Positions 17,755-30,737 of a DNA stretch of 31,179 nucleotides are shown here, one piece after another. Origin of the DNA: a virus. The stretch covers positions 1 to 31,179 of IMG/VR virus record IMGVR_UViG_3300010297_002404. The stretch is one strand, 5' to 3'. The translations under genes were made by a program, and so were the position numbers. The notes beneath the pieces are model-generated. The model worked only from the letters and a program-made list of their open reading frames with translations. It was not told where the DNA came from and did not search any database. Within the stretch, counting starts at the first letter, position 1. The number at the start of each line of letters is the position of its first letter.

Positions 17755-18066
17755 ATGTATAAGCCATTGCCAGACGGATTAACTATTAAAGAATCAAATG
17801 TGCAAGGTTTAGGTTTGTTTGCAACAAAAGATTTTGATGCCGATGTGGTATTGGGTATAGTACACGTATTAAATAAAAATTTTCCACATGGCAGTATTAG
17901 AACAGCCTTAGGTGCATTTTACAATCATTCAGATGATCCTAACTGTAAAAATGTTTCAGGATTTTGGCATCAACTGCCAGTAAAATATCTTATCACAATT
18001 AAACCAATCAAAGCTGGTCAAGAACTTACAGCCAAATATACTCTTTATAACGATTTTCATGATTGA
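17755..18066 (+). CDS. SET-domain protein (putative protein-lysine methyltransferase)
   Basis: SET domains transfer methyl groups from S-adenosylmethionine to protein lysines. The 103-aa product is a minimal SET core: GLGLFATKDF (18-27) is the N-terminal SAM-binding strand, N57-H-S-x-x-P-N-C64 is the knot motif, and AGQELTAKY (87-95) carries the catalytic tyrosine region. No pre- or post-SET cysteine clusters exist. Phage and bacterial minimal SET proteins are known but their targets rarely are. It sits directly before the tmRNA gene, and its 3' end overlaps the -35 of the tmRNA promoter by a few bases. Confidence 0.75.
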   Translation: MYKPLPDGLTIKESNVQGLGLFATKDFDADVVLGIVHVLNKNFPHGSIRTALGAFYNHSDDPNCKNVSGFWHQLPVKYLITIKPIKAGQELTAKYTLYNDFHD

Positions 18067-18091
18067 CACAATCTGTTTTCTGTGCTATAAA
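18063..18091 (+). promoter_or_regulatory. Strong sigma70-type promoter for the tmRNA gene
   Basis: A consensus TTGACA (18063-18068) and TATAAA (18086-18091) are separated by exactly 17 bases, the best host-type promoter in the window. Transcription would begin near 18098, just ahead of the tmRNA acceptor piece. This indicates transcription by host RNA polymerase. Confidence 0.75.
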
Positions 18092-18150
18092 TATTTATAC
18101 AATGTTGAAATAACTTAAAAGTTGAGTAGGACCCGGGGGCAGTGCCCGGC

Positions 18151-18266
18151 GGCTCCACCATAAACATATTAGGAGTTAAATGGAATTTTTGTGGATAGGA
18201 ATAGCAGTAGCATTTGCTACTGTATTGTGGGCATTAACACTTTAACAATATGTTTATGATGGGGCC
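18151..18266 (+). repeat. 20-bp inverted repeat closing the tmRNA intervening loop
   Basis: The left arm 18151-18170 and right arm 18247-18266 pair over 20 positions with one C-A mismatch and one G-U. The inner ten, TAAACATATT against AATATGTTTA, are perfect; the outer part is the tmRNA acceptor stem. The 76-base loop (18171-18246) is filled by a Shine-Dalgarno and a complete 21-codon ORF. Confidence 0.85.
18180..18245 (+). CDS. 21-aa hydrophobic micropeptide inside the tmRNA intervening loop
   Basis: ATG 18180 is preceded by AGGAG (18171-18175), which begins at the first loop base; TAA ends at 18245, one base before the right stem arm. The peptide begins MEFLWIGIAVAF and continues with TVLWALTL. 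It is almost entirely apolar with a single acidic residue and is long enough for one membrane span. Such peptides can act as membrane-active or regulatory factors, but no family is recognised. Translation would have to precede processing of the tmRNA precursor. The exact fit to the loop argues against chance; coding potential otherwise rests on 22 codons. Confidence 0.55.
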   Translation: MEFLWIGIAVAFATVLWALTL

Positions 18267-18329
18267 GAACTTAGGATCGACTATCATATTAGTAGAGTTA
18301 TGGAGTTGTCCGGCGGGAGCTCGGTTAAC

Positions 18330-18377
18330 GCAACAAAAAATATAAATGCAGATGAAAATCTAGCACTTGCGGCCTAA
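18330..18377 (+). other. tmRNA proteolysis-tag reading frame
   Basis: From the GCA resume codon the frame reads ATKNINADENLALAA and stops at TAA 18375-18377. The ALAA end is the canonical C-terminal degron recognised by ClpX (and ClpA), and the phage encodes its own ClpX and ClpP. The resume codon is assigned by analogy with the usual Ala start; one codon earlier (AAC) is the main alternative. Confidence 0.85.
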
Positions 18378-18437
18378 ATTAGGCTAACGGGGTTGGCAAC
18401 TTACCTGGCAACAGAAAAGTTGCACATAAGGATTAAA

Positions 18438-19154
18438 ATGCAAATATTATCTCAGAGTTTTCCTAGTTGTTATGAATATAATATAGAACAATCTGGAAAA
18501 TTAACATTAAAAACTAGAACCACGTACTTCAATGAAGGACAGTTATGGCCAATAGCAAATACTAATATTGGTTATCTTTCAATAACCAAATGTCTATCAT
18601 CAAGTTTTATAGAGTTTTTGAGATTGCAAAATTTAATAACTGATCAATTCTTATTTTCTAAAGATGATCAGTTAGACAAAGTTGATAAGATATTAGTATT
18701 TCTTCGAGATCCTTGCCAGCGTTATATGTCAGGTATTGCAGAATATATTCATATGCAGTTTGCTTCTGACATACAGACAATGTCACAGCAAACACTGATA
18801 CACATAGTAGAAGCATTGATAGGAATCAGTGATGTAGACGAACACAGCATAGAACAAATTCATTTTTTTAGAGATTTTAATTTGCAAAAGTTTTCAGTTT
18901 TTCTAATGAACGATAAATTTTCCGAACAACAGGTGTTTGATTGGATGCGTGACAACGGGACAATCTTTAGAGACGACATACCATTGACAATACCAAAAAT
19001 CAATAGAACAGTAGACAATGAGATTAAACAAAAAATTTATGATGTAGTACAATCTGTAGGCATGAGAAGAAGTTTTTCTATAATGGGCAAGTGTGTAGGT
19101 GATACAGAGTTAATTAATTATTTTAAATCAAATGGTCAGGTAATAAATGTTTAA
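18438..19154 (+). CDS. Sulfotransferase-like protein
   Basis: Start is ATG 18438 with AAGGA five bases upstream; the open frame extends back into the tmRNA but that part is unlikely to be coding. Two segments match PAPS-dependent sulfotransferases: SITKCLSSSF (48-57) resembles the 5'-phosphosulfate loop (K-x-x-S-S/T), and ILVFLRDPCQRYMSGI (85-100) the 3'-phosphate motif with R90, R95 and S98. The rest of the 238 aa is helical. Similar small sulfotransferase-like proteins occur in marine phages, with unknown acceptors. Its 3' end overlaps the next gene by eight bases. The motif match is good but short. Confidence 0.55.
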   Translation: MQILSQSFPSCYEYNIEQSGKLTLKTRTTYFNEGQLWPIANTNIGYLSITKCLSSSFIEFLRLQNLITDQFLFSKDDQLDKVDKILVFLRDPCQRYMSGIAEYIHMQFASDIQTMSQQTLIHIVEALIGISDVDEHSIEQIHFFRDFNLQKFSVFLMNDKFSEQQVFDWMRDNGTIFRDDIPLTIPKINRTVDNEIKQKIYDVVQSVGMRRSFSIMGKCVGDTELINYFKSNGQVINV

Positions 19155-20639: not shown

Positions 20640-20729
20640 GGAAGGGTGGCTGAGTGGTTGAAAGCACTGGTCTTGAAAACCAGCAACGGGGCAACTCGTT
20701 CGTGGGTTCGAATCCCACCCCTTCCGCCA
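20640..20729 (+). tRNA. tRNA-Ser(UGA)
   Basis: The acceptor stem GGAAGGG (20640-20646) pairs with CCCTTCC (20719-20725). The anticodon stem CTGGT/ACCAG holds loop CTTGAAA with anticodon TGA at 20674-20676. A long variable arm (AACGGGGCAACTCGTT) and the T-loop GGTTCGAATCC are present. CCA is encoded, after discriminator G. It reads UCA and other UCN codons, frequent in this AT-rich genome. Confidence 0.97.
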
Positions 20730-20796: not shown

Positions 20797-21147
20797 ATGA
20801 CATATTACGTAAATCAAGCATGTGTAATGTGCAAACATACAGATTGTGTAGAAGTTTGTCCAGTAGATTGTTTCTATGAAGGTGAAAACATGTTGGTGAT
20901 CAACCCAGATGAATGTATTGATTGTGGAGTTTGTGAACCAGAATGTCCAGTTGATGCAATCAAACCTGATAGTTTTGATGAGCCGGATAAAGCTCATTGG
21001 CTGGATATTAACAAACAGTTTTCAGAACAATGGCCAAATCTTACAAAAATAATAAAAGAAATGCCCGAAGCCGAAAAGTATAAACCAGAAAATTACGGTA
21101 AAGATAAAACTGATCTATTTTCAAAAAACCCAGGAGTAGGAGATTAA
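20797..21147 (+). CDS. fdxA: 7Fe ferredoxin (FdxA type)
   Basis: FdxA carries electrons with one [3Fe-4S] and one [4Fe-4S] cluster. The ligand pattern is that of Azotobacter FdI: C9, C17 and C50 for the 3Fe cluster and C21, C40, C43 and C46 for the 4Fe cluster ([17 protein letters not shown], then [12 protein letters not shown]). The C-terminal 55 residues, including [14 protein letters not shown] and IIKEMPEA, match the extension typical of alphaproteobacterial FdxA, so host origin is likely. It has its own promoter. The stop overlaps the next ATG by one base. In phage the partner could be a host oxidoreductase. Confidence 0.92.
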
Positions 21148-22148
21148 TGTCTAACAAGAAAAAACCAAGTGCGGCCAAACAAGCATATGAAGAAAAAAAA
21201 GTGGCCAAACAAGAGATTAAGAAACAAGAAGAAATTAAAAAACAACAAGGTCAAAATCTTGATAAAGCCTTAGGTACAAAAGTTGAAATTGATCTTTCAT
21301 CATTTAATGGTCAGCATTTATTTGTTGCCACACCTGCATATGGCGGATTAGTAGGTGAAGCATATCTTAAATCAATGACAAAAGTAGGAATATTATTTTC
21401 TAAACATAATATTAATTTTACATTGGCTACGATTGCCAATGAAAGCCTTATTACAAGAGGGCGTAACACCTTAGTAGCAATGTTTATGAGTGATCCAAAA
21501 TATACTCATATGCTTTTTATTGATGCTGATATTCATTTTCAAGCAGAAGATGTATTAAAACTATGGTGGAGAGCTGTAAAGAATCCTGATGTAAAAGTAA
21601 TAACTGGTGCATATCCAAAAAAATCAATTAACTGGAAAGGAATTAGAGAACAAGTAATTTCAAACAGTGCAGATGAAGAAGAAATGCAAAAATATCAAGC
21701 ATCATATGTATTAAATCTTAGAACTGACAATGACGGTCGAATTCCATTACAGAATGGAATTTTACCTGTTTATGATGCTGGTACAGGATTTATGTTATTT
21801 GGAAGAGAAGTTATCCAGACAATGATGGATAAATGGCCTGAATTACATTATAAGAATGATTTAAACACAGATCCAAAATTTAATCCTTATTGTTATGCTT
21901 TGTTTGACACAATAATTGACCCTGAAACACGAAGATATCTTTCAGAAGATTATACATTCTGTCGAAGATGGCAAGAACTAAATGGAACAATTTGGATGGA
22001 TCCAAGTATTAATTTAGATCACCAAGGAACTTATCTGTTTAAAGGAAACATTGGAAATCAGTTTATGGTTCAAGAAAAGATATCAGATGAAACTGCTGAC
22101 CAAATGCTTAAAGAAGCAGAAAACAAACAACGAAATCAAAATACCTAA
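21147..22148 (+). CDS. GT-A fold glycosyltransferase
   Basis: The first 45 residues are a Lys/Glu/Gln-rich disordered or coiled segment. The catalytic domain starts near residue 57 (HLFVATPAYGG) and includes LATIANESLITRGRN and the metal-binding D126-A-D128 in MLFIDADIHF. Later VITGAYPKK and DAGTGFMLFGREV resemble sugar-binding parts of GT2/Anp1-like enzymes, and SEDYTFCRRW is the usual acidic base motif. Such enzymes in T4-like phages modify DNA, virion or host surface glycans; the acceptor cannot be read. It is joined to fdxA and to the next membrane-protein gene by one-base overlaps. Confidence 0.8.
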   Translation: MSNKKKPSAAKQAYEEKKVAKQEIKKQEEIKKQQGQNLDKALGTKVEIDLSSFNGQHLFVATPAYGGLVGEAYLKSMTKVGILFSKHNINFTLATIANESLITRGRNTLVAMFMSDPKYTHMLFIDADIHFQAEDVLKLWWRAVKNPDVKVITGAYPKKSINWKGIREQVISNSADEEEMQKYQASYVLNLRTDNDGRIPLQNGILPVYDAGTGFMLFGREVIQTMMDKWPELHYKNDLNTDPKFNPYCYALFDTIIDPETRRYLSEDYTFCRRWQELNGTIWMDPSINLDHQGTYLFKGNIGNQFMVQEKISDETADQMLKEAENKQRNQNT

Positions 22149-22384: not shown

Positions 22385-22468
22385 GCCCTGGTGGTGGAAT
22401 GGTAGACACGCTGGTCTTAGGAACCAGTGCTGAGAGGCGTGAGAGTTCGAATCTCTCCTAGGGCACCA
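22385..22468 (+). tRNA. tRNA-Leu(UAG)
   Basis: Acceptor stem GCCCTGG (22385-22391) pairs with CTAGGGC (22458-22464, one G-U). The anticodon stem CTGGT/ACCAG holds CTTAGGA with anticodon TAG at 22418-22420. A class II variable arm, T-loop AGTTCGAATCT and encoded CCA are present. It begins on the base after the preceding stop codon, so it is probably cut from a polycistronic transcript. Confidence 0.97.
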
Positions 22469-22845: not shown

Positions 22846-23175
22846 CTAACCTGCATTATATTGTGTGTAAGTGGTATGTATCTTTCCTTCAGCCCATACC
22901 CTATCATATTGACTGGCAGTCAACACATCATCGTCACCATACAACAATTCCACTTGTTCCTGTGGTAAGCAGAACGCAATGTTGTGAGTACCTCCATAAT
23001 CAGAGAAAACAGGATCTGATTCTTTTCTTATGTATTCGTTTGCTCTCACAACACATTCTAGGTAACTGTTTGTGTCTTTCATACTGATAGTTTTGAAATC
23101 ACATTTGTCTTCGACAAAGTTAGGTGGTCCACCTAACCAACATACCATTGTTATCAATGTGAAAGGTTCCAACAT
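22846..23175 (-). CDS. Small protein on the minus strand, possibly exported
   Basis: This is the only convincing minus-strand gene. I start it at the ATG complementary to 23173-23175 (109 aa); the frame stays open 26 codons further, into the plcP start. The N-terminus is hydrophobic (MLEPFTLITMVCWLGG) and may be a short signal or anchor. The rest is polar, with cysteines in DKCDF, LECVV and AFCLP that could form disulfides after export. Codon use is protein-like and no + frame across this stretch is comparable. TACTAT lies three bases before the start codon on that strand, hinting at a leaderless transcript. It is divergent from plcP with 59 bases between. Function unknown. Confidence 0.6.
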   Translation of the reverse strand: MLEPFTLITMVCWLGGPPNFVEDKCDFKTISMKDTNSYLECVVRANEYIRKESDPVFSDYGGTHNIAFCLPQEQVELLYGDDDVLTASQYDRVWAEGKIHTTYTQYNAG

Positions 23176-23234
23176 ATAATAGTATTTAACAAAACTGTAA
23201 CATTTTAAAAATACCATTAAAATAAATATATTTG

Positions 23235-23975
23235 ATGCCAAAATACAGGACAATTTTCATATCAGATGTGCATCTAGGCACCAAAGGCTGTCAAGCAGAA
23301 GTGCTTGACGATTTTCTACGTAACAACGATTCAGAAAAATTATACCTTGTGGGTGACATTATTGACGGCTGGAAGTTATCTAAAAGAATTTATTGGCCAC
23401 AAGAACATTCAAATGTAATTCGTAAAATTATTGGCAAGGCACGAAAAGGCACTAAGGTATTTTATATACCTGGAAATCACGATGAAATTCTTCGTAAATG
23501 GTTAGATATGGACCTGCGTTTTGGCAGAATCAGAATCGTAGAAAACAAAGTTCACAAGGGTGCTAATGGTAAAGAATATTTTGTTGTACACGGAGATGCA
23601 TTTGATGGTATTACAAGATTGGCTCCATGGGTGGCCTGGCTGGGAGATTCAGCATACGAGGTCTCACAAAATCTCAACAGATGGTATAATCAAGTAAGAA
23701 AAAAGTTAGGTATGCGTTATTGGAGTTTTTCAAAATTTCTCAAACACAATGTTAAAAAAGCAGTGGACTTTATTTTTAAATTTGAACAGAACGTTAGCGA
23801 GTATTGTAAGAAACAAGGTTATGCTGGTGCCATCACAGGACACATACACACTCCTGAAATAAAAAAGGTAAATGGTGTTGTGTACATGAACTGCGGAGAC
23901 TGGGTAGAAAATACTACAGCACTAGTAGAGCATTATGATGGTAGTTTTGAGATTGTTGAATGGAAAATAAAATAA
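23235..23975 (+). CDS. plcP: PlcP-type metallophosphoesterase (phospholipase C of lipid remodelling)
   Basis: The 246-aa product is a calcineurin-fold phosphoesterase with intact metal ligands: D11-V-H13, G40-D41, G80-N-H-D83, H119-G-D121 and G202-H-I-H205. Often labelled UDP-2,3-diacylglucosamine diphosphatase (LpxH-like), it has the wider pattern of alphaproteobacterial PlcP: YWPQEHSNV, RKKLGMRYWSFSKFLK and NCGDWVENTTALVEHYDG. PlcP cleaves phospholipid headgroups to diacylglycerol during phosphate stress. The glycosyltransferase two genes downstream is the known partner, which supports PlcP over LpxH. Start is ATG 23235, without a clear Shine-Dalgarno. C-richer codons than the neighbours suggest fairly recent transfer. 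LpxH activity cannot be excluded. Confidence 0.8.
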   Translation: MPKYRTIFISDVHLGTKGCQAEVLDDFLRNNDSEKLYLVGDIIDGWKLSKRIYWPQEHSNVIRKIIGKARKGTKVFYIPGNHDEILRKWLDMDLRFGRIRIVENKVHKGANGKEYFVVHGDAFDGITRLAPWVAWLGDSAYEVSQNLNRWYNQVRKKLGMRYWSFSKFLKHNVKKAVDFIFKFEQNVSEYCKKQGYAGAITGHIHTPEIKKVNGVVYMNCGDWVENTTALVEHYDGSFEIVEWKIK

Positions 23976-24202
23976 AAAAGTTATTTTGGTTTTTAGTGAA
24001 TCTTGTTAAAGTCTTGACGATTGATTTTTTCGTTGCATTTGGATCAGTGTTTGTTTCAGTTGCAATATTTTATTCGTTTGATGTACCTAGTCAGTGGAAA
24101 ATACCAAACATTATAATCCCAATCATTGCTGTTTTTATCTACAGAGTTTTTGGAAGAATTTTTGCACCAGGTATTAAAAAGTTTAAGGAAACAAACAAAT
24201 GA
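23960..24202 (+). CDS. Small membrane protein between PlcP and Agt
   Basis: The 80-aa product has two hydrophobic spans: LFWFLVNLVKVLTIDFFVAF through FVSVAIFYSF, and IIIPIIAVFIYRVFG. Termini are basic. It overlaps plcP by 16 bases and the glycosyltransferase by four (ATGA), so the three are one translational unit. A role in placing the soluble or peripheral enzymes at the inner membrane is a guess from position. Confidence 0.65.
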   Translation: MENKIKKLFWFLVNLVKVLTIDFFVAFGSVFVSVAIFYSFDVPSQWKIPNIIIPIIAVFIYRVFGRIFAPGIKKFKETNK

Positions 24203-25194
24203 AAGTTGTAGTTGTTACTGATGCATGGTTGCCACAGGTTAATGGTGTAGTCACAACACTGTCTAACATAATGAAGAATCTGCCAGAGCATGAGTTCACA
24301 GTGATTGACCCTAGTCAATTCAAAACAATATCAGCACCAAAGTATCCAGAATTAAAATTAGCATATAATCCATGGCAGTTAAAAACAAAATTAGATGCAC
24401 TAGAATTTGATGCTATCCATATTGCCACTGAAGGACCTTTGGGATTGTTTGCAAGAAACTATTGTGAAAGTAGACAAGTCAATTATACCACAAGTTATCA
24501 CACAGACTGGCCCAACTTTATCAACAAGTTTTATGGCGTACCATGTTCATGGACCATGTGGTGGATGAAACTGATTCACAAGAATGCCAAAAGAATACTA
24601 GCAACTACACACAGTATGAAAAAAGAACTTGAACAAGCAGGACTACAAAATTTGGTTGTGTGGGGTAGAGGTGTTGATCAAAGCATATTCACAGATGAAG
24701 TTAAAATCAAACGTGGCAAAAGACCTTTGTTGATATCAGTCAACAGAGTTTCGTTTGAAAAAAACATAGAAGCATTTTGTGAACTGTCCACAAACACAGA
24801 ATGGGATTGTGTGGTGGTAGGTGACGGCCCTGCTAGAGCAAGTTTAGAAAAGAAATATCCAAATGTTGAGTTTGTGGGTTACAAGCATGGCAAAGAACTG
24901 GCCAAATGGTATGCTGGTGCTGATGTAAAAGTGTTTCCTTCACGTGTGGACACATTTGGTCTAGTAATGATTGAAGCAATGAGTTGTGGTACTCCGGTTG
25001 CTGGTTTTCCTTGCAGAGGCCCTGTAGATGTAATTGATCAAGGAGTGACTGGGTATATGCACGAATCACTAGAAGTAGCAGTACAGCAGTGCTTAAAACT
25101 GGATACAGACACCATTAAACGCACAGCCAAGCAGAAGTTTACTTGGTCAAAGTGTGCTGAAATATTTGCTAATAACTTAATTAAGTTACAATAA
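24199..25194 (+). CDS. GT4 glycosyltransferase, Agt/SqdX-type diacylglycerol glycosyltransferase
   Basis: The 331-aa product is a GT-B family 4 enzyme. The N-terminal LPQVNGVVTTL (11-21), IHIATEGPLGLFAR (73-86) and SYHTDWPNF (99-107) match SqdX/Agt-like enzymes closely. WGRGVD (155-160), NRVSFEKN (182-189), VVGDGPAR (207-213) and D251-TFGLVMI-E259 form the donor site, with Asp replacing the first Glu of the usual EX7E. Agt transfers glucose or glucuronate to diacylglycerol released by PlcP, making phosphorus-free lipids. The tight operon with plcP supports that pathway; sulfolipid synthesis is the main alternative. A terminator-like hairpin follows. Confidence 0.8.
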   Translation: MKVVVVTDAWLPQVNGVVTTLSNIMKNLPEHEFTVIDPSQFKTISAPKYPELKLAYNPWQLKTKLDALEFDAIHIATEGPLGLFARNYCESRQVNYTTSYHTDWPNFINKFYGVPCSWTMWWMKLIHKNAKRILATTHSMKKELEQAGLQNLVVWGRGVDQSIFTDEVKIKRGKRPLLISVNRVSFEKNIEAFCELSTNTEWDCVVVGDGPARASLEKKYPNVEFVGYKHGKELAKWYAGADVKVFPSRVDTFGLVMIEAMSCGTPVAGFPCRGPVDVIDQGVTGYMHESLEVAVQQCLKLDTDTIKRTAKQKFTWSKCAEIFANNLIKLQ

Positions 25195-25196
25195 GA

Positions 25197-25225
25197 TAGA
25201 CTTTTAAAAAAGCCTTTGCTATAAT
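25197..25225 (+). promoter_or_regulatory. Promoter overlapping a hairpin upstream of the Smr gene
   Basis: TAGACT (25197-25202) and a perfect TATAAT (25220-25225) are 17 bases apart. The -10 lies in the loop of the hairpin at 25206-25245. A transcript starting near 25232 would contain only the right arm, so it would escape the terminator. Confidence 0.5.
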
Positions 25226-25245
25226 TACAAAGTAAAGGCTTTTTT
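25206..25245 (+). terminator. Rho-independent terminator after the PlcP/Agt operon
   Basis: AAAAAAGCCTTT (25206-25217) and AAAGGCTTTTTT (25234-25245) form a perfect 12-bp stem with a 16-base loop and a T-run. The T-run ends on the base before the next ATG (25246). Symmetry allows function on both strands. Confidence 0.75.
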
Positions 25246-25488
25246 ATGACTGAAAAATTAGATTTACATGGCTACACAGTTATGGATGCATGGCGTTGTT
25301 TTGATCAATGGATAAAAGAAAAACATCTTGATTCATCAATTAAAAAAGTAGTAATAGTAACAGGAGATGGCGCAATCAAACAAGAATTTGAAAGATGGTG
25401 TATGGACATGAGTTTTGTTAGACAAGTTGAATTACATAAGTCTGGTGGTGCTTTTATAGTTTATTTTTATAAGAAAAGGAATAGATAA
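25246..25488 (+). CDS. Smr-domain protein
   Basis: The 80-aa product is a bare Smr domain: LDLHGYTVMDA (5-15) is the conserved LDLHG motif and VIVTGDGA (36-43) the TGxG motif, ending with GGAFIVYF. Smr domains occur in MutS2 and in nucleases that nick RNA or DNA, including those cutting mRNA at stalled or collided ribosomes. It overlaps the next ATG by one base. A link with ribosome rescue is attractive given the tmRNA but is inference. Confidence 0.75.
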   Translation: MTEKLDLHGYTVMDAWRCFDQWIKEKHLDSSIKKVVIVTGDGAIKQEFERWCMDMSFVRQVELHKSGGAFIVYFYKKRNR

Positions 25489-26264
25489 TGGAAACGATTG
25501 TATTAGTTACTGGCGGATTTGATCCTTTACATTCTGGACATATTGAATATTTTAAAGAAGCAAAAAAACTAGGTGATTCACTGTACGTGGGTATTAATTC
25601 TGATGCATGGTTGGTTCGCAAAAAAGGACAAGCATTTATGAGTTTTGCAGAAAGAAAAACAATTATAGAAAATCTAAGTATGGTAGATAAAGTCATTAGT
25701 TTTGACGACAGCGACGATACTGCTTGTGGAGCCATATACAAACTAATGGCCACAGATGGTTATGGTAAGCACATTATATTTGCAAACGGCGGCGACAGAA
25801 ACAGTACAAATATTCCTGAAATGCAAACGTATGAAAATCAAATTGAATTTGTGTTTGGTGTAGGTGGTAATAACAAAATAAATTCATCTAGCACAATACT
25901 GGAAAATTGGAAACAACCAAAAGTACAACGTAAATGGGGTTGGTACAGGGTATTACAAACTCGCCCAGGATACAAAATAAAAGAACTAGTAATTAGACCA
26001 GAATCCAGTTTAAGTATGCAACGTCATTTCAAAAGATCAGAAAACTGGTATATTTTAAAAGGAAGTTGTCAATTAGTTACTGTTGAAAACAACAGAAAAA
26101 AGAATCAAGTTCTTAATCCTAATCAATCATATAATATACCAGAACAAACATGGCATCAAGCATCTAATCCTTTTTATGATTATTGTCATATTTTAGAAGT
26201 ACAGTATGGAACAGAATGCATTGAAGAAGATATTGAAAGAAAAAACATTGACAATACTGGCTAG
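25488..26264 (+). CDS. Cytidylyltransferase fused to a mannose-phosphate-isomerase-type cupin
   Basis: The N-terminal 140 residues are a HIGH-class nucleotidyltransferase related to the HldE/RfaE C-terminal domain: GGFDPLHSGH (9-18) carries the nucleotide-binding HxGH, followed by VGINSDAWLVRKKG and INSSSTI (131-137) in place of ISSTxI. Residues 147-250 form a cupin like the C-terminus of ManC/type II mannose-6-phosphate isomerases: GWYRVL, IKELVIRPESSLSMQRHFKR, ENWYILKGSC. In the cupin, HF replaces the usual HH. The fusion suggests synthesis of a nucleotide-activated sugar, perhaps a heptose or mannose derivative for surface glycans. Substrates are not readable. Confidence 0.75.
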   Translation: METIVLVTGGFDPLHSGHIEYFKEAKKLGDSLYVGINSDAWLVRKKGQAFMSFAERKTIIENLSMVDKVISFDDSDDTACGAIYKLMATDGYGKHIIFANGGDRNSTNIPEMQTYENQIEFVFGVGGNNKINSSSTILENWKQPKVQRKWGWYRVLQTRPGYKIKELVIRPESSLSMQRHFKRSENWYILKGSCQLVTVENNRKKNQVLNPNQSYNIPEQTWHQASNPFYDYCHILEVQYGTECIEEDIERKNIDNTG

Positions 26265-26301: not shown

Positions 26302-26754
26302 ATGGCAAAATACTATAGCACAAAAACATATGGACACAACATTGGATTGAGTGCAGTGTTTAGACAACCAAATGCAGATCATTCACATTGTCATCTGCTA
26401 CATGGATACAGTTTACAGTTCAAATTCACATTTGGATGTGATGAATTAGACAACAAAAATTGGGCAGTAGACTTTGGTGGGTTGAAGCCATTAAAGAAAT
26501 GGTTAGAAGACAGTTTTGATCATAAAACTGTAATTGATAAAAAAGATCCTTATATTGAAACTTTTTATGATCTTGAGAAAAAAGGTCTTTGTGAATTAAC
26601 TGTCATGGATGGTGTTGGTGCAGAAAAATTTGCCGAACACGCTTTTAACTATGCAGATGGATTAATCAGAGAAGCAACTAATAACAGATGTTATGTTGTA
26701 GAAGTTGAATGTGCAGAGCACGGTGCCAACAGTGCAATTTATTCTGTAAAATAA
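26302..26754 (+). CDS. queD: 6-pyruvoyltetrahydropterin/6-carboxytetrahydropterin synthase family (QueD-like)
   Basis: QueD makes 6-carboxytetrahydropterin, the second step to 7-deazaguanine (queuosine, or phage DNA modification). The 150-aa product has HSHCHLLHGY (27-36) supplying a Cys and zinc-type His, VDFGGLKPLKKWL (56-68), FDHKTVI (72-78) with the Asp-His of the active site, and VECAEHGANSAIY (135-147) carrying the Glu near the pterin. AGGAGA lies seven bases before the ATG. FolE, QueE and QueC are not in this window; they may be elsewhere in the genome. Without them this could serve a host pterin pathway. Confidence 0.75.
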   Translation: MAKYYSTKTYGHNIGLSAVFRQPNADHSHCHLLHGYSLQFKFTFGCDELDNKNWAVDFGGLKPLKKWLEDSFDHKTVIDKKDPYIETFYDLEKKGLCELTVMDGVGAEKFAEHAFNYADGLIREATNNRCYVVEVECAEHGANSAIYSVK

Positions 26755-28336: not shown

Positions 28337-28614
28337 AACTTGAAGACAATACTCAAATTATATCAATCAACAAAGATGGTAATTTATCACGTTCTGGAAA
28401 CAGTCTGGAAGCAAGAAAAGAGAACATCAAAAGGATTGACATCAATGATGAAATTAGTATAAACTTAACTGAAGTAAAAAAGATTATTGATATGGATGGT
28501 ATTCATAAATTAACACAACAAACACTACAAACTCCATCAGTCTCTCAAACACAAAATTTTTCAAGAGATAAAAAATGGATAAAAGATTGGTTAGAAAATA
28601 ATAAAAATGAATAA
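28324..28614 (+). other. dnaX-like slippery site and -1 frame extension of the preceding gene
   Basis: The nine-A tract (28321-28329) followed by G contains A-AAA-AAG (28324-28330) in the zero frame of the 26771 gene. Slipping back one base gives GAC at 28330 and an open frame to TAA at 28612-28614. The added 94 residues (KLEDNTQIISINKDGNLSRS and on to [12 protein letters not shown]) have protein-like codon use. No convincing downstream stimulatory hairpin was seen. A one-base homopolymer error in assembly would give the same picture. Confidence 0.6.
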
Positions 28615-28624
28615 GGATGAAAAT

Positions 28625-29851
28625 ATGAAATGTTCTTTTTGTGGTAAGTTACGAAAAGATGCTGAAAAGTTAGTTGCTGGTCCAGAAGGCGCTTATATAT
28701 GTGATGAATGTATTGAACTTTGTCATAGTATAATTGACGACACTAGCAAAGGTAAAGAAAAAGTAATAGAAGAAACATTTGAAATTCCTGATCCAAAAGA
28801 TTTGCATGATCATTTAAATGATCATGTTATTGGTCAAGAACAAGCAAAAAAAGTTTTAAGTGTTGCAGTATATAATCATTACAAAAGATTATTTTCAAAT
28901 AAAGAAGAAGATCATGATGATGGTATTGAAATTGAAAAATCAAATGTATTAATGCTTGGACCATCGGGTGTTGGTAAAACACTTATGGCAAGAAAAATTG
29001 CTGACTATGTTGATGTGCCTTTTGCTATTGGTGATGCTACAACTCTAACTGAAAGTGGATATGTAGGAGATGATGTTGAAAACATTATTGTAAGACTGCT
29101 GGCCAATGCAGATTATGATGTTGAAAAAGCACAAAGAGGAATTATTTACATTGATGAAATTGATAAAAAATCACGTAAATCAGAATCTACATCAATCACA
29201 AGAGATGTATCTGGCGAAGGTGTACAACAAGCACTTCTAAAAATTATTGAAGGTACAGTAGTAAGAGTACCACCACAAGGCGGTAGAAAACACCCACAGC
29301 AAGAAATGATTGAAGTTGACACATCAAACATATTGTTTATATGTGGAGGTGCGTTTGTTGGCTTAGAAAAAATTATTAATAAAAGAGTGAATACAAATGC
29401 AATGGGTTTTGGCAGACCTGTTGAGGTAGATCAAACTTTAAACCAAGAGGTACAACCAGAAGATGTTATAAAGTTTGGATTGATTCCAGAACTAGTAGGT
29501 AGATTGCCAGTTTTAGTATCAGTGTTAGAATTAACTAAAGCCGAAATGAAAGATATTTTAATTAAACCTGAAAATTCATTACTCAAACAAACACAAAAGT
29601 TATTTAAAATGGAGTCTATTGATCTTGAGATAACAAATGATGCTATTGAGCAGATTGTTGAAAATGCTTATGAGAAAAAGTTAGGTGCTAGAGCATTAAA
29701 ATCAGTTTTAGAAGATTTATTGCTAGACATACAATATGAATTACCAAGTTATCGAAAAGCAGGAGTAACAAGACTAGTTGTGAACAAAGATACATTTAAA
29801 AATAAAAACCCTCTTTTGATTTACCAAGATACAGGAACCCAATTGGAATAA
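28625..29851 (+). CDS. clpX: ClpX, ATP-dependent unfoldase of ClpXP
   Basis: ClpX recognises tagged proteins, unfolds them and feeds ClpP. I choose ATG 28625, with AAGGA seven bases upstream; an in-frame ATG at 28607 would add six residues. The N-terminal zinc domain has C3, C6, C26 and C29. The AAA+ core has Walker A GPSGVGKT (112-119), pore loop GYVG (145-148), Walker B IIYIDE (173-178) and the RKH loop (221-223) that binds ssrA tags. The ClpP-docking IGF loop is present as MGF (260-262). Length (408 aa) is near the E. coli 424. IF3 follows directly. The tmRNA tag and ClpP in the same genome make a phage-owned degradation route plausible. Confidence 0.93.
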
Positions 29852-30388
29852 ATGAAACCCCGTTTTGGTCCAAAAGATATTAGTAGAAACAATTCTCTAA
29901 TAAACGAAAAAATTCGAGCATCTAAAGTAAGAGTAGTTGACGACAATTTTAATGTTATAATGAATCTTAATGAAGCAATAGCAAAAGCAAAAAATGAAGG
30001 ATTGGATTTAATTTGTATCACACCAAATGCAAATCCACCTGTTTGCAAAATAATGGATTTTGGTAAGTATCTTTATCAACAAAAAAAGAAAAAGAAAGAA
30101 TCTGCTAAAAACCAAACAGTCACTGAATTAAAAGAAATACAGTTTAGGCCAACCATTGATATTGGTGATATCAAAGTAAAAACCAAAAGAATAAATGAAT
30201 TTTTAGCACAAGGACACAAAGTTAAATTGATTATGCAGGTTCGTGGTAGAGAGCAAGGAATGAAAGACTTTTGTTACCAAAAGTATGAAAATTTTGTTGG
30301 ATTTATTGATAAATTTGAATATGACACAAATCCAAAGTGGCAAGGTAATAAAGTTCTTGCAATTTTAAAAAAATCTAGTATAATATAG
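29852..30388 (+). CDS. infC: Translation initiation factor IF-3
   Basis: IF3 binds the 30S subunit, blocks premature 50S joining and checks the start codon and initiator tRNA. The 178-aa product has the N-domain motif INEKIRASKVRVVDD (18-32), the C-N linker rich in Lys (YQQKKKKKESAKN), and the C-domain with LKEIQFRPTIDIGD and KVKLIMQVRGREQ. Length is that of host IF3. The start is a normal ATG immediately after the clpX stop, not the AUU that autoregulates bacterial infC, so that feedback would be lost. bS21 follows after 19 bases. Its high expression could bias initiation toward phage messages, but this is inference. Confidence 0.93.
   Translation: MKPRFGPKDISRNNSLINEKIRASKVRVVDDNFNVIMNLNEAIAKAKNEGLDLICITPNANPPVCKIMDFGKYLYQQKKKKKESAKNQTVTELKEIQFRPTIDIGDIKVKTKRINEFLAQGHKVKLIMQVRGREQGMKDFCYQKYENFVGFIDKFEYDTNPKWQGNKVLAILKKSSII
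30357..30384 (+). promoter_or_regulatory. Promoter upstream of the bS21 gene
   Basis: TTGCAA (30357-30362) and a perfect TATAAT (30379-30384) are 16 bases apart within the infC 3' end. Transcription would start near 30391 and reach the GAGG-preceded ATG at 30408, allowing bS21 to be made separately from clpX-infC. Confidence 0.5.
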
Positions 30389-30407
30389 TTTAACAAATGA
30401 GGTAAAA

Positions 30408-30737
30408 ATGAAACCAAACAACAGAAACTTTAAATCAAATAAAAACTTTAAAGGGGGCTATTCTAATAACAAGCCAAAATTTGATAGACCAAAACCAGTA
30501 GGATTACAAGTCTTTGTGCGTGAAGGAGAAGATCCTATGAAAGCATATCGTAAATTAAAAAAACGAATTATGCAAGATGGTTTATTACAAGAAGTCAAAG
30601 ATAGACGTTATTATCAAAAGCCAAGTGAAAAAAAGAAAATAGCAAAGCAACAAGCAAAACGTAGGAATGAAAAAAGGCAACGCGAGTTGGCAATGGAATA
30701 CGGTATCCGATATAAAAATTATACACCTGGATACTAA
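30408..30737 (+). CDS. rpsU: Ribosomal protein bS21 with terminal extensions
   Basis: bS21 is a small 30S protein near the anti-Shine-Dalgarno end of 16S rRNA and is needed for initiation. The core at about residues 35-95 is clear: VFVREGEDPMKAYRKLKKRI, KDRRYYQKPSEKKK and the basic KRRNEKRQREL helix. The 109-aa product is longer than typical 65-75-aa bS21, with a 32-residue Asn/Lys/Gly-rich N-terminal extension and a Tyr-rich C-terminal tail (GIRYKNYTPGY). GAGG precedes the ATG. bS21 homologues are known from pelagiphages and other viruses and are thought to exchange onto host ribosomes. Confidence 0.88.
   Translation: MKPNNRNFKSNKNFKGGYSNNKPKFDRPKPVGLQVFVREGEDPMKAYRKLKKRIMQDGLLQEVKDRRYYQKPSEKKKIAKQQAKRRNEKRQRELAMEYGIRYKNYTPGY

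Follow-up and report, generated by a model that had tools for sequence, protein, structure and literature searches.

A phage-borne operon of plcP-agt type with a putative role in phosphate-stress lipid remodelling

Phosphate-starved marine bacteria use PlcP and Agt to swap the phosphate of their membrane phospholipids for sugar, and for small marine cells the phospholipid of the membrane is a major reserve of phosphorus. What, then, might such a pair of enzymes be doing on a virus? The question is raised by the IMG/VR record IMGVR_UViG_3300010297_002404, the whole of which (31,179 bases, hereafter the window) was analysed, and which carries at 23235-25194 a three-gene operon encoding a phosphoesterase, a small membrane protein, and a glycosyltransferase of family GT4. 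Our comparisons suggest a phage-borne phosphate-stress operon for lipid remodelling, which would sustain or boost the starvation remodelling of the host during infection; we put the probability of this reading at roughly three in four. The assignment of the phosphoesterase to the PlcP family and of the GT4 to an Agt-like group is well supported by sequence comparison, control by phosphate starvation is strongly suggested for the phage plcP group as a whole, and for the operon of the window itself the signs of such control are suggestive.

Identity of the two enzymes

The three open reading frames (ORFs) lie on the plus strand and are joined by overlaps, as the original prediction had stated: a PlcP-type metallophosphoesterase of 246 amino acids (23235..23975, with its ATG at 23235), a membrane protein of 80 amino acids with two hydrophobic stretches (23960..24202), and an Agt-type GT4 of 331 amino acids (24199..25194), the first overlap being 16 bases long and the second 4 bases. 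Pfam recognizes the phosphoesterase as Metallophos (46.8 bits, cut-off 21.5) and the glycosyltransferase as Glyco_trans_1_4 (80.8 bits) and Glycos_transf_1 (80.1 bits), and finds no family match for the 80-residue protein. All three genes recur in identical order and with 95-99% identity in L002 and L003 (L-numbers here label the relative loci compared), and the order is repeated in L311-L313; L314 ends inside the GT4 gene. Because the genes are conserved in the same order in these loci, they are not chance ORFs. Relatives of the 80-residue protein occur in L002, L003, and L311-L314, solely between PlcP and GT4; a possible role for it would be to keep the two enzymes membrane-bound.

The phosphoesterase invites confusion with LpxH (UDP-2,3-diacylglucosamine diphosphatase), with which it shares the calcineurin-like fold and seven letters (Asp11, His13, Asp41, Asn81, His119, His203, and His205) that include the presumed metal ligands. 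However, curated LpxH models give it 40.0 bits (cut-off 190.35) and 53.1 bits (cut-off 134), far under both cut-offs. When nine bacterial genomes with a PlcP locus were scanned with TIGR01854, seven matches scored above the cut-off, at 236-337 bits, and seven more at 42.5-52.6 bits, with one genome giving no match; the protein of the window, at 40.0 bits, lies near the low-scoring group. The same division is seen in a phylogeny with 37 viral, 26 bacterial, and 8 LpxH rows (71 in all), for which 230 unique sequences were thinned by identity to 63 before the LpxH rows were added, and none of whose rows is an experimentally characterised PlcP. A branch with support 100 sets all eight LpxH rows apart from the rest, and the window protein belongs to a group of 33 viral rows and one Hyphomonas metagenome-assembled genome (support 95), with SAR11, gammaproteobacterial rows, and a second small viral group as neighbours. 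The Hyphomonas locus (L046) was considered as a possible phage contig, an idea we dropped on account of neighbouring genes that look bacterial by eye, and it is counted here as bacterial. Over the whole tree the viral label changes 3 times, against 24 changes expected by shuffling, and more than one transfer is therefore possible. Finally, six letters that are fixed in 8/8 LpxH rows are all replaced in the window protein, which has the PlcP letters Asp44, His82, Glu84, Lys170, Ile204, and Asn219 instead. Scores, tree, and residues together lead us to reject an LpxH identity and place the protein, as the original prediction had proposed, within the PlcP family; that it would function as a PlcP is suggested by the neighbouring GT4 and by the report that PlcP from SAR11 restored the synthesis of diacylglyceryl trimethylhomoserine (DGTS) in a Phaeobacter plcP mutant (PMC4796936).

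For the GT4, the most informative comparison is with GTcp, a SAR11 enzyme in which mutation of any of 13 residues, among them His104-Asp256 and the diacylglycerol contacts Arg163 and Trp320, abolishes activity (PMC8231724). Residue numbers were transferred through a SAR11 relative (L101), several SAR11 glycosyltransferases carrying the exact residue numbers of GTcp. All 13 are present in the window (G16, G79, G82, H101, R157, R183, K188, D251, T252, F253, G254, E259, and W316), and the complete set is kept in 59/68 bacterial and 60/112 viral proteins but in 0/16 references. In an 85-row tree with 45 viral and 24 bacterial proteins and 16 references (including E. coli WaaG, WaaB, WcaL, and WcaC), built from 112 viral and 68 bacterial proteins thinned to 46 and 24 clusters, with 45 of the 46 viral clusters used, the viral and bacterial Agt-like rows part from the 16 references with support 93, although many of the reference branches are long. 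Among the references used, a GT4 of surface glycans is not favoured by this tree, and an Agt-like protein is what the original prediction had proposed; of the two placements held to refute that prediction, the phosphoesterase inside the LpxH clade and the GT among enzymes of lipopolysaccharide (LPS) glycans, the trees show neither. The best identity of the window protein is 95% to L002, 48% to other viral proteins, 44% to bacterial ones, and 29% to a reference. Its likeness to the GTcp/Agt group consists of the 13 mutation-tested residues and about 37-44% identity to bacterial members; it differs in a glycine at Thr162 and in its first motif, which reads NRVSFEKN rather than GRVAxEKN.

A further candidate, tetrahydrobiopterin glucosyltransferase, was raised by a QueD/PTPS-type gene at 26302-26754 in the window and by the structure model of the GT4 (predicted local distance difference test, pLDDT, 92), whose closest solved structures are retaining GT-B enzymes, with a tetrahydrobiopterin glucosyltransferase as the first match at 17% identity. 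It is not favoured, as sequence similarity to that enzyme is partial (E 1e-8 to 2.5e-7), whereas the PlcP-linked GT4s align over nearly their full length at 37-44%.

The operon among bacteria and phages

An adjacent PlcP-GT4 pair corresponds to the "type 2" layout described for bacteria such as SAR11 HTCC7211 and Erythrobacter, in which a GT4 of Agt type comes after PlcP in the same orientation (PMC4796936). Among the best 80 of at least 593 bacterial PlcP loci, an adjacent GT4 was found in 69 (L080 and L109 were scored as non-adjacent, though the GT4 there lies in an overlapping long ORF), and the proposed resemblance of the three-gene operon to a bacterial plcP-agt operon holds. Pho-box-like sites also lie upstream of some bacterial loci, as of phage loci. 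However, the operon of the window is phage-borne, its proteins fall in phage-specific sequence groups, and it contains the additional 80-residue membrane protein; the TAAATA element found ahead of phage plcP genes is likewise missing from the bacterial upstreams (0/66).

An initial scan of viral contigs found 27 loci with PlcP, in 14 of which a GT4 is adjacent. Profile scans then returned at least 577 PlcP and at least 399 GT4 relatives, among 600 candidates each, from which the best 80 loci of either kind were kept; the sets overlap in some records. PlcP is adjacent to 66 of these 80 GT4 loci and lies 0.8-1.3 kb upstream of 10, with none in the available DNA of the remaining 4; counted from the PlcP side, 35 of the best 80 loci have an adjacent GT4. 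The identities of the two proteins correlate across loci (r 0.53 for 55 viral loci, with 0/2000 permutations as high; r 0.83 for 40 bacterial loci). In the GenBank phage collection, four records match PlcP, namely the Pelagibacter phage Mosig (55%), a faecal clone (41%), and two entries of cyanophage S-SRM01 (33%). Mosig is an isolate, and its protein is annotated as "putative UDP-2,3-diacylglucosamine hydrolase".

How firmly these records belong to phages was judged from the capsid model Gp23 and the terminase model Terminase_6N in 50 viral records bearing the pair (GT4 adjacent or within 1.3 kb, and including L314). At least one of the two models was over its cut-off in 17/50; in control genomes, Gp23 matched 0/14 and the terminase model 6/14. 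The sheath model PF04984 was of little help, matching 2/44 viral records. In the 31 kb of the window neither Gp23 nor Terminase_6N was matched. The record does carry phage-type genes for a DnaB-like helicase, a primase, an exonuclease, and a PAAR protein (PHROGs). Its NrdA has Mosig as best phage match (71.7% identity) and its DnaB is closest to Pseudomonas jumbo phages (52%), and the genome therefore looks mosaic. As a separate observation, L315 (CAKLQH020000017.1), which bears the name Acinetobacter phage MD-2021a, looks locally bacterial, with nagZ, prc, ndk, and a radical SAM gene side by side.

Promoter elements and pstS neighbours

Upstream of the PlcP gene of the window lie a Pho-box-like direct repeat, ATTTAAC-AAAA-CTGTAAC (23184..23201, plus strand, -51 to -34 relative to the PlcP start), and, 21 nt past it, a TAAATA element (23223..23228, plus strand, at -12). 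We take the TAAATA element to resemble the T4 late promoter TATAAATA. A first scan for Pho boxes used a plain E. coli-type consensus and, counting upstreams with p of at most 0.05 over 40 shuffles, found the bacterial PlcP upstreams enriched (29/77). A looser pattern, YTGTMAY-N4-YTGTMAY with one mismatch, was picked post hoc after a recurring TTGTAAY-N4-YTGTAAT had appeared; it is present in 12/66 bacterial PlcP upstreams (shuffle mean 0.2, maximum 2) and in 4/20, 18/56, and 21/67 upstreams of three viral sets (shuffle maxima 1, 1, and 2). Pooled, this amounts to 37/129 viral PlcP upstreams against 20/548 other viral ORFs, 10 of those 20 being pstS-like by eye. The promoter counts exclude loci that were short of upstream DNA, contained N, or were over 70% alike, and the viral totals of 129 here and 130 below reflect slightly different slices.

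The relation of the repeat to TAAATA is regular. In 30/30 plus-strand sites TAAATA follows the repeat, at a gap of 11 nt (17 sites), 21 nt (6), or 22 nt (7), and this spacing played no part in choosing the repeat pattern. TAAATA itself lies in the last 35 nt of 63/130 viral PlcP upstreams, compared with 66/548 control ORFs and 0/66 bacterial PlcP upstreams. When the 63 upstreams are anchored on TAAATA alone, half-site scores peak at 11, 21-22, and 32-33 nt (3.2-4.1) and stay at or below 2.97 elsewhere, up to 69 nt. Equal spacing between repeat and TAAATA is found ahead of 8 pstS-like genes and 5 copies of a gene beginning "MRLEDLA" (by eye, not dereplicated), as if several genes shared one phosphate regulon. 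That many phage plcP genes and several pstS-like genes stand behind a Pho-box-like repeat and TAAATA is new here. Upstreams with repeat and TAAATA, 11 or 21 nt apart, before pstS-like or "MRLEDLA" genes were noted at L004, L173, L174, L181, L184, L189, L196, L201, L243, L247, L249, L255, and L264.

The closest counterpart of the window, L002, has a perfect repeat at the same distance, its gap to TAAATA being 21 as in the window. Upstream of the repeat site the DNA of the two loci looks unlike, suggesting that the promoter travelled with the operon. A minus-strand ORF (22846-23253) stands head to head with the PlcP gene of the window, and the DNA there resembles the upstreams of L312 and L314, not that of L002.

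A second connection to phosphate comes from neighbouring genes. A match to the pstS-type model PF12849 was found in 9/44 viral records, and in 8 of the 9 the gene is near the PlcP-GT4 pair (at up to about 105 bases in six records and up to 3.3 kb in two; the ninth is far off). Of five pstS-type proteins scanned with the PstS models of NCBIfam, those of L174, L187, and L189 passed the cut-offs, and those of L208 and Mosig failed. In Mosig, PlcP is divergent from the pstS-type gene (PF12849 153 bits; TIGR02136 143 bits against a cut-off of 206.6). L189 alone, among the six adjacent cases, is in a hallmark-bearing record (231 kb, with Gp23). The records of the closest relatives of the window (L002, L003, and L311-L314) contain no PF12849 match.

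Proposed function and rival explanations

In the proposed mechanism, PlcP would cleave the phosphate head groups off two lipids of the host, phosphatidylglycerol and phosphatidylethanolamine, to leave diacylglycerol, as expected from its family. The GT4, judging from its family and its conserved essential residues, would then use a UDP-sugar of the host to glycosylate this diacylglycerol, and the membrane would keep its bulk as glycolipid. The promoter pattern and the pstS neighbours of relatives suggest that, in many such phages, host PhoB probably raises transcription in phosphate-starved cells from the Pho-box-like repeat at a fixed distance from the phage-type TAAATA element. The freed phosphate would then feed phage DNA synthesis, and the lipid programme could continue once host transcription stops.

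Binding of PhoB to cyanophage promoters has been reported (PMC10976474), and the cyanophage pstS and other genes for which host PhoB control is proposed are among the nearest likenesses, being host-type phosphate genes on phages. However, plcP-agt would act on membrane lipids rather than on uptake or nucleotides, and the repeat is here joined to TAAATA at fixed spacing. A wider possibility, which we judge to be evenly poised, is that large T4-like and other big phages have a phosphate-starvation regulon of their own, in which plcP-agt, pstS, and other genes would share a hybrid promoter with a host Pho box 11, 21, or 22 nt before a late-type TAAATA, and through which host starvation sensing would steer phage transcription to the dismantling of phospholipids. 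If so, a promoter with these two inputs would represent a type of phage control element not described before, and the plcP-agt operon would be, within the literature searched, the first phage-encoded membrane lipid replacement pathway.

Besides the post hoc choice of the repeat pattern, several observations weigh against a phosphate-stress operon. The original prediction's link to phosphate stress fits the pstS neighbours and the Pho-box-like sites of the relatives, but the repeat of the window has two mismatches (12/14 positions fit), which makes it weak alone and strong only in relatives, and no pstS was seen beside the operon. The plain E. coli-type consensus is weak in phages (0/25, 8/60, and 9/71), and phage Pho boxes are reported to be unreliable by prediction alone (PMC10976474). 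Five of the nine pstS-bearing records have no hallmark gene, including five of the six in which pstS is directly adjacent. As many as 45 of the best 80 viral PlcP loci are without an adjacent GT4, although in 7 of the 45 one lies 0.8-2.7 kb on, and in Mosig no GT4 was detectable by a search that had no positive control of its own. On the side of the enzymes, Thr162 of GTcp is likewise crucial according to a figure legend (PMC8231724) and corresponds to Gly156 in the window; furthermore, Glu at Asp256 costs GTcp more than 90% of its activity (PMC8231724), and 49/112 viral GT4s have Glu at this position (for example, L021, L022, and L026), the window having Asp. The Glu256-type phage enzymes may differ in donor or mechanism. 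Lastly, the structure model of the phosphoesterase (mean pLDDT 80) has LpxH as its closest solved fold (E 6e-10, 18-20% identity), with no PlcP among the PDB matches; the models of both enzymes should be read as giving folds, not substrates.

The strongest rival keeps the same enzymes but gives them another purpose, in that the phage would alter envelope lipids against competing phages or for assembly and exit, with phosphate release as a by-product. A Ruegeria aminolipid mutant is reported to be less phage-susceptible (PMC9938194), unpublished changes in adsorption after lipid remodelling are mentioned in PMC9804370, and another glycosyltransferase-like gene (21147-22148) and sugar-related genes lie near the operon. 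We nevertheless consider this explanation unlikely, as the pstS neighbours and the Pho-box-like promoters point to phosphate, and the many viral PlcP genes without an adjacent GT4 need no new surface lipid. A second rival, that these are genes for LPS or surface glycans, the phosphoesterase acting on lipid A precursors as LpxH does and the GT4 decorating LPS, is consistent with the lpxH labels of annotators, with the many LPS-type glycosyltransferases of pelagimyophages (PMC7029224), and with the closest solved fold; it is made very improbable by the LpxH scores, the tree, and the residues, and by the separation of the GT4 from the E. coli enzymes of LPS and colanic acid used here. Least credible of all is that the genes serve no function for the phage, being either cargo carried along or bacterial DNA sorted into viral bins, for although 33/50 pair-bearing records showed neither Gp23 nor Terminase_6N and some neighbours look bacterial (L181 and L194), the other 17 carry at least one of the two, Mosig is an isolate, viral PlcPs cluster apart from bacterial ones with few label changes, and TAAATA precedes viral but not bacterial PlcP genes.

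If the phosphate-stress reading is right, a phage tapping membrane phospholipid would connect the production of viruses with the lipid composition of their hosts and, in nutrient-poor waters, with the cycling of phosphorus. The novelty that had been claimed for the module stands in so far as we found no open-licence paper in which PlcP, alone or together with Agt, is described as a module of phages, most subscription papers being outside the search; it does not extend to uniqueness, since PlcP relatives are widespread in viral contigs and present in the isolate Mosig. The gene name lpxH appears in two surveys of viral genes (PMC9611531, PMC10653327), and our results suggest PlcP as the identity of some phage genes that carry this label. 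A term search of the main text of an ocean viral gene survey (PMC11360552) returned neither plcP nor lpxH, and the first of the two text parts of the Mosig announcement (PMC7892664) does not discuss the gene. Phosphate islands of HIMB59 have been reported with "LpxH" and "RfaG" (PMC10734472), which may be PlcP and Agt by analogy. Mosig and HTCC1062 form a cultured pair suited to studying phage PlcP.

Downstream of the operon, a 42-base hairpin (25205..25246, plus strand) has a free energy of -18.4 kcal/mol, with 0/200 shuffles equally stable (z -6.0). The strong hairpin expected of the closing terminator is thus present; since the U-rich 3' arm belongs to the stem and reaches as far as the A of the start codon that follows, its role as a terminator is likely rather than proven. 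It was absent from a terminator pattern scan, whose loop limit is 8, the loop here being 10. The following DNA holds a Smr-domain gene (25246-25488) and a nucleotidyltransferase-like domain fused to a mannose-6-phosphate-isomerase-type cupin (25488-26264), and further on (28607-30737) come three genes in succession, for a ClpX-like protein (by eye), a translation initiation factor (PHROG match), and a bS21-like protein (by eye). Ahead of the operon are a gene resembling transfer-messenger RNA (18064-18468), tRNA genes for Ser(tga) and Leu(tag) at 20640-20729 and 22385-22468, and a ferredoxin gene (20797-21147) that scores 146.9 bits against the proteobacterial FdxA cut-off of 135, is kept in L002, and has weaker matches in L311 and L028.

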